Part shown: positions 58,845 through 60,158 of the stretch, piece after piece | Layout: each line of letters begins with the position of its first letter | Position numbering within the stretch: the stretch's first letter is position 1 | Assembly: GCF_013694095.1 (NCBI RefSeq) | Contig: NZ_JACEFB010000008.1 | Location: 1-64,000, forward strand | Source: Thermogemmata fonticola | Lineage (GTDB): Bacteria; Planctomycetota; Planctomycetia; Gemmatales; Gemmataceae | DNA length: 64,000 nucleotides | Direction: 5' to 3' | Program-made: the position numbers and the translations under genes | The notes under the pieces: generated by a model | What the model saw: the letters and a program-made list of their open reading frames with translations, nothing else | Told to the model about the DNA's origin: nothing | The model's database searches: none

Positions 58845-60047
58845 CTATTTCAAGGTGTAGCGCAAATGGAGACGTTGGCCGTTGCGCAGGATATTCAGGG
58901 TGATCGTATCCCCCACGAGGTAATTGCGTCGCACGTGGGCCAGCAACAGCTCTCCGCCTCCCTGGAAGGTTTGGCCGTCGATGCCGATGAGAATATCGCC
59001 TCCCCGCAGCCCGATCCGTTCGAGACTTTCATGCACCCGCTGCTGTTGTCGCAGAGCGGCTTGATTGGCGGGTAGTCCCAAGGCTCTCTTTTCCTCCGGC
59101 GTCAGATCATCGCCGACCACGGGGAGCGAGGGAAGGATGTCTAGCAGCGAGGGGCGCCACGTGATGTTGGTTTTCCGCCAGCCGGGGGGCAGTTTGAGCG
59201 TCGCGGAGAACTGCCGCTCGCCTCGCTTCCAGATCACCGGGATGCTTCCCTGCTTCGGGGCTTTGTGCAGGGCATAGGAGGCATCGGCGAAGGAGGCAAC
59301 GGAATAACCGTTGAGCTGCACGAGGCGATCCCCCGCTTGCAAGCCGGCCTCGGCTGCCGGCGAGCGAGGTTGTACCGCCTGGACCAAATCGCCTTGGTCC
59401 TTGTGCAACACGATCCCGATATTCTCCGGCAAGGGATAGGACCAAATGCTGTCCCGGTCCCACGTGCCGGCGGCCTGTTCCGCAGCGCGGCGGAACTCGT
59501 TGACATTATGGCAGTGGATGCAGCCGCGATGGCGGCGGGCGGCGGGATAGTCCTCGGGCCGCACGGGAGGACCGCTCAGCCGCACAGCGGGGGGCGGCTG
59601 CTGGTGCTTCTCCAGCGCCCGTTCCAGGGCATAGCGCAAGCCCGCCAGGGACAAGCGCCCCTCACTATCGGAGGCGTCACGCCCCCCATAGCGGCCATAG
59701 ATCGTCTCATCCGCGTTGAGGAAAAAGGCGTACCAGGTCACATCATAGTCGAACTCGAAGCGCCGCAGGTCCATCCCGGCAATCTTGATCAGACGCACGC
59801 GAATGAACCGCTCCGCCACATCCCGAATCTCTTTCGGCAGACGCACCACCTGTGCGTCGAACTCCGCGCAGTCCAGTCACGGCTCGCAACGGAACACCAG
59901 GAAGATCGGCTTGCCGCTCCGGCGGGCTTCGGCCCGGGCCGCCTCGTAATCCGAAAACCAGCCGTACCGGGCTGGGTCCAGCTTCTGCACATTGGACGCT
60001 CCGCTTGAAGCTAACACGCCGATCCACAGCCAGCTCATCGCCATCAT
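58845..60047 (-). CDS. candidate selenoprotein: thioredoxin-like UxxC, CxxCH heme motif, two PDZ domains
   Basis: Without recoding, two fragments lie in the same frame, 60047-59877 and 59849-58845, separated by a single TGA at 59879-59877. Read through as Sec, they give a 400-residue exported protein. Signal peptide (MMAMSWLWIGVLASSGAS), then a thioredoxin-like segment GKPIFLVFRCEP-U-LDCAEFDAQ: Sec57 and Cys60 occupy the CxxC of thioredoxin, with Cys54 before them. A C176IHC179H180 c-type heme motif follows, then PDZ domains (about 215-270 and 335-400). The domain structure continues without a break across the TGA. A 7-bp hairpin lies 18 nt after it. The alternative is a TGC-to-TGA nonsense mutation. 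GTG at 60095 is another start. Selenocysteine genes are not in this window. Confidence 0.72.
59840..59858 (-). promoter_or_regulatory. SECIS-like hairpin downstream of the in-frame TGA
   Basis: On the minus strand GACGCAC-AGGTG-GTGCGTC forms a perfect 7-bp stem with a 5-nt loop containing GGU. It starts 18 nt after the TGA (59879-59877), within the distance known for bacterial SECIS elements, and the loop resembles that of E. coli fdhF. Chance occurrence in GC-rich DNA cannot be excluded. Confidence 0.55.
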
Positions 60048-60158
60048 GATGCTTACCACTCCGAACACTTCGCATTGAACCCAGGAACACACCATCTCCG
60101 GGAACCTTTCCTGCCGCGCCCGGTTCCCGAAGCTTCTCCGACGTTTGTCCGCGAGGGC

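Follow-up and report, generated by a model that had tools for sequence, protein, structure and literature searches.

In a 64,000-nucleotide stretch of the Thermogemmata fonticola genome (contig NZ_JACEFB010000008.1; hereafter the window), a minus-strand hairpin at positions 59858-59840 almost certainly serves a trx7_PDZ selenoprotein gene as its bacterial SECIS element: SelB would bind its loop, and selenocysteine (Sec) would be inserted at the preceding UGA, within a C-x-x-Sec-x-x-C site. The original prediction had proposed such an element, and the proposal is supported by a stem kept with TGA and lost with Cys codons, by the Sec machinery, and by membership in a curated protein family. For the sequences compared here, the weight of evidence is comparative, comprising covariation, codon conservation and the contrast between Sec and Cys homologues, which together are much stronger than single-sequence folding tests.

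Position and structure of the hairpin

The gene occupies positions 58845..60095 of the minus strand, on which all features described below are located, and comprises 416 codons when TGA is read as Sec; its frame is open and contains a single in-frame TGA. The likely start, with a signal peptide, is an ATG at 60047 or 60044. The Sec codon (59877..59879) specifies residue 73 of the 416-residue ORF, the U of the motif C70-x-x-U73-x-x-C76. It is followed by an 18-nt spacer encoding LDCAEF (59859..59876), the 5' arm of the stem, GACGCAC (59852..59858), the apical loop AGGTG (59847..59851), which in relatives is mostly AGGTT and also AGTTG or AGGTC, and the 3' arm, GTGCGTC (59840..59846); both arms were assigned by RNAfold and covariation. 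RNAfold gives a perfect 7-bp stem with a 5-nt loop, and the hairpin alone has an energy of -10.4 kcal/mol. On re-reading the minus strand, the predicted perfect stem (GACGCAC-AGGTG-GTGCGTC), its coordinates and the 18-nt gap after the in-frame TGA were all found to be exact, and the hairpin retains coding sense as had been claimed: the peptide D-A-Q-V-V-R is read in frame through it.

The SECIS element of E. coli fdhF has a bulged U in its stem and a six-nucleotide loop. Like that element, the hairpin described here lies within the coding region just 3' of the UGA, and its loop starts with AGGU; unlike it, the stem is a perfect 7-bp helix without the bulged U, and the loop is 5 nt long. Thus, the previously proposed likeness to the fdhF loop holds for the AGGU part, but does not extend to the stem.

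The numerical constraints on bacterial SECIS (bSECIS) elements are a loop of 3-9 nt, a stem of 4-16 bp, a distance of 16-37 nt from the UGA and an MFE <= -7.5, and one of the first two loop positions is G, with G or U often coming next (PMC13188914). The window hairpin lies within every numerical limit, including the distance, which is 25 nt from the UGA to the apical loop and agrees with the earlier statement that the stem is correctly spaced. The G is second in AGGTG, and AGG or AGT is present in 120/129 TGA-containing family members. In addition, and as expected of a bSECIS element, compensatory changes maintain the structure among Sec homologues, whereas Cys homologues do not conserve it.

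An Rfam scan of the window gave zero matches at the gathering cut-offs. A covariance model of the hairpin, applied to 41 genomes, produced 25 matches at E < 1e-4, all of them in trx7_PDZ family genes; therefore, the element is specific to this gene family. Two weaker matches (L232 and L233) were considered as other selenoproteins and rejected, as neither has a convincing selenoprotein frame.

Conservation and covariation of the stem

Homologues were collected from 59 relatives, a GTDB contig collection and 392 Planctomycetota genomes. For the region of the site, this gave a comparison set of 178 distinct sequences, of which 129 have TGA and 49 have a Cys codon in the same alignment column. At least six of the seven pairs are formed in 108/129 TGA homologues (all seven in 85, exactly six in 23), versus 2/49 Cys homologues (six pairs each), with all seven pairs in 0/49. 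Under a synonymous null, in which the protein is kept and synonymous codons are redrawn, the mean z was -1.58 for the Sec set and +0.13 for the Cys set, where excess structure is absent. The Cys revertants L030/L031 and L172, which are nested in TGA clades, have broken stems, and the genomes of L030/L031 are without tRNA-Sec and without SelB over the cut-off. The proposed check, namely whether the stem is kept with TGA and not with Cys, was therefore borne out, and neither of the outcomes named in advance as refuting, equal conservation with Cys or absence from other TGA homologues, occurred.

Two fixed registers account for the well-paired TGA sequences. In the main register, bases 18-24 pair with 36-30 (95 TGA sequences, mostly with loop AGGTT); in the second, the same bases pair with 35-29 (13 TGA sequences with loop AGTT, e.g., GACGGCC-AGTT-GGCCGTC). 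The second register, with its 3' side shifted by one base, goes with the replacement of CAG-GTT (Gln-Val) by CAG-TTG (Gln-Leu), as observed in L147, L164, L166, L177, L181 and others. Fewer than six pairs are formed in either register in 21/129 TGA members, most of which nevertheless have a shorter hairpin at this position; L088 and L096 are among the few that do not fit the family pattern. In these two and in L075, L077, L081 and L083, all with TGA, the hairpin is shorter or displaced, and their SECIS elements may differ from the family pattern.

Among 24 diverse members, the covariation score of the stem was 0.376, compared to 0.163 +/- 0.028 for shuffled alignments, and 0/500 shuffles reached it; 94% of cells were paired, versus only 28-54% in slid registers. 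The most informative case is pair 22/32, formed by base 2 of codon 8 and base 3 of codon 11 after the UGA, which was observed in the states G-C, A-U, C-G, G-U and U-A. On a tree for which the residues encoded by the SECIS element had been masked, parsimony assigned 34 changes to this pair, about 23 of them clean double changes from one Watson-Crick pair to another. The base in codon 8 is amino-acid-changing and that in codon 11 is silent (the third position of a Val or Ala codon), and the residue at codon 8, Gly, Glu, Ala or Val, predicts the silent base C, T, G or A in 72/78, 19/25, 15/16 and 4/5 sequences, respectively. As judged from these codons, the linkage is inexplicable by protein-level selection. 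Codon choice is also biased at the hairpin: GTT makes up 67/90 of Val codons at codon 10 versus 70/683 elsewhere in the sequences, and CGT is used in 85/102 cases at codon 12 versus 36/449 elsewhere. Codon p-values treat sequences as independent, so it is safer to rely on the tree count.

The family thus provides an unusually clean natural case of selection on a SECIS element, in which amino-acid-changing and silent bases change together and the stem decays upon reversion from Sec to Cys.

Alternative readings of the TGA and the hairpin

Three other explanations were weighed against a SECIS element. The TGA could be an ordinary stop codon, produced by a pseudogene, a frameshift or an assembly error, next to a hairpin formed by chance in GC-rich DNA. 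This would agree with standard ORF calling, which yields a 334-aa ORF from a GTG at 59849, after the TGA, and with dinucleotide shuffles, than which the 56-nt stretch folds no better (z -0.23, not significant), although this single-sequence test is uninformative because the gene is GC-rich. Tested against the synonymous null, the window gene has p = 0.006 when folding energy is scored and p = 0.08 when only stem length is. An ordinary stop is nevertheless extremely improbable, as TGA occupies the same column, a Cys position, in 129 distinct homologues across dozens of genera, similarity runs on both sides of it, and the stem covaries. As the hairpin encloses this same GTG start codon, it might instead attenuate translation or belong to an internal start site; we give this reading equally little credence, since the stem occurs together with the TGA and is gone in Cys forms, nested revertants whose genomes lack Sec machinery among them, and since its location, its loop G and its distance from the UGA are those of a bSECIS element. 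Moreover, initiation at GTG 59849 would cost the protein both its thioredoxin active site and its signal peptide.

Slightly less remote, but still very unlikely, is the explanation that nucleotide conservation merely mirrors a peptide needed by the protein: Sec members do conserve D-x-Q-V-V-R, and a different peptide (DDELV...) occupies the hairpin site in the Cys paralogues. However, conservation extends to silent bases, which also covary with non-silent ones; Sec members, unlike Cys members, exceed the synonymous-codon null; and residue 8 is free to vary (G/E/A/V) while the pair is kept. A SECIS element remains the preferred reading, and the support for TGA as Sec means that one selenoprotein of 400-416 residues should be annotated here instead of a truncated PDZ protein. 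By analogy with the established bacterial pathway, a ribosome would reach the UGA at 59879 while SelB, carrying GTP and Sec-tRNA-Sec, binds the AGGU apical loop 25 nt downstream and delivers selenocysteine, which would give this secreted protein, with its CxxCH motif and two PDZ domains, an active site of the thioredoxin type, C-x-x-Sec-x-x-C.

The protein family, Sec machinery and members with two UGAs

At its N terminus, the encoded protein has a signal-like segment, followed by a Thioredoxin_7 domain, a CxxCH motif and two PDZ domains. The Thioredoxin_7 domain (residues 46-102, 59790..59960; Pfam PF13899, E 3e-11) holds the CxxU motif, and the first PDZ domain (residues 226-302, 59190..59420) matches Pfam PF13180/PF17820. 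The AlphaFold2 model has a mean pLDDT of 91.9; among the Foldseek matches listed from the PDB, only the PDZ part was covered (DegP, DegQ, RseP), with nothing on the thioredoxin part. Between the thioredoxin and PDZ domains lies CIHCH (residues 192-196, 59508..59522), resembling a c-type haem-binding site; this CxxCH motif (CxHCH) is present in 82/83 long sequences, Sec and Cys forms alike, and the sole exception, L069, has an interrupted frame. The motif raises the possibility that this secreted selenoprotein carries covalently bound haem, and the whole protein is probably a periplasmic thiol/selenol redox enzyme. The gene is flanked by an esterase/gluconolactonase-like fusion downstream and an unassigned secreted protein upstream, and these neighbours gave no sign of a Sec or redox operon. 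A plasmid search for homologues matched only the PDZ parts of HtrA-type proteases.

The protein matches NCBIfam NF041199 (trx7_PDZ_seleno, "Trx7/PDZ domain-containing (seleno)protein") with 454.1 bits against a cut-off of 300, over profile positions 2-389 of 390, and has the defining arrangement, a Trx_7 domain that carries Sec/Cys in its CxxU/C motif and precedes PDZ. This is a whole-length equivalog match that does not set the gene apart from its family. VPGUxxT thioredoxin-like selenoproteins (NF041382/NF041383) show weak similarity, but only over the thioredoxin domain and far below their cut-offs, and their active-site motif differs by name. The family is already listed as "PDZ domain-containing protein" (pfam13899, CxxU) in a 2022 review (PMC9312934) and as "Trx7/PDZ domain-containing protein", a CxxU selenoprotein, in a 2026 review (PMC13188914). 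By its sequence, the gene therefore adds a new and well-supported member to a family of secreted thioredoxin-like selenoproteins that is already catalogued, and does not represent a new type.

The SelA, SelB, SelC and SelD components are present in the same genome, all over their cut-offs (SelA 532.6 bits, SelB 396.3, SelD 291.4, tRNA-Sec 74.9). The SelD match (G000:C3:143392-144300) sits in a 776-aa open frame, which suggests a fusion of SelD to another domain. tRNA-Sec was found in 20/23 genomes with TGA genes versus 1/11 with Cys forms only; G003, a TGA genome that is 75% complete, has an assembly without tRNA-Sec and SelB.

The reviews describe one Sec (CxxU), whereas about half of the TGA members in our wider sample are of the UxxU type: in 65/129 TGA sequences, two UGAs 9 nt apart are followed by one downstream hairpin at the same place. 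Examples include L016, L033, L038, L069 and 60+ phylum members. With at least six pairs formed in 58/65 UxxU and 50/64 CxxU members, the hairpin is kept equally well in both; the first UGA of the UxxU members is 34 nt from the loop, within the 16-37 nt range, and the first motif position (C/U) changed 19 times on the tree. UxxU is known from other bacterial selenoprotein families (PMC13188914). We consider it an even call whether the family as a whole represents a selenol-haem redox protein that is secreted and whose one or two UGAs are served by a single hairpin, in either of two registers; UxxU would then have been gained or lost many times, and the two-Sec variant would go beyond the reviews. 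Since the number of UGAs under one hairpin often switches between one and two, it is directly testable how a single SECIS element serves two UGAs. In addition, L183 (genome G136, contig C148:7958-8860), a partial homologue, appears to have three in-frame TGAs over its match.
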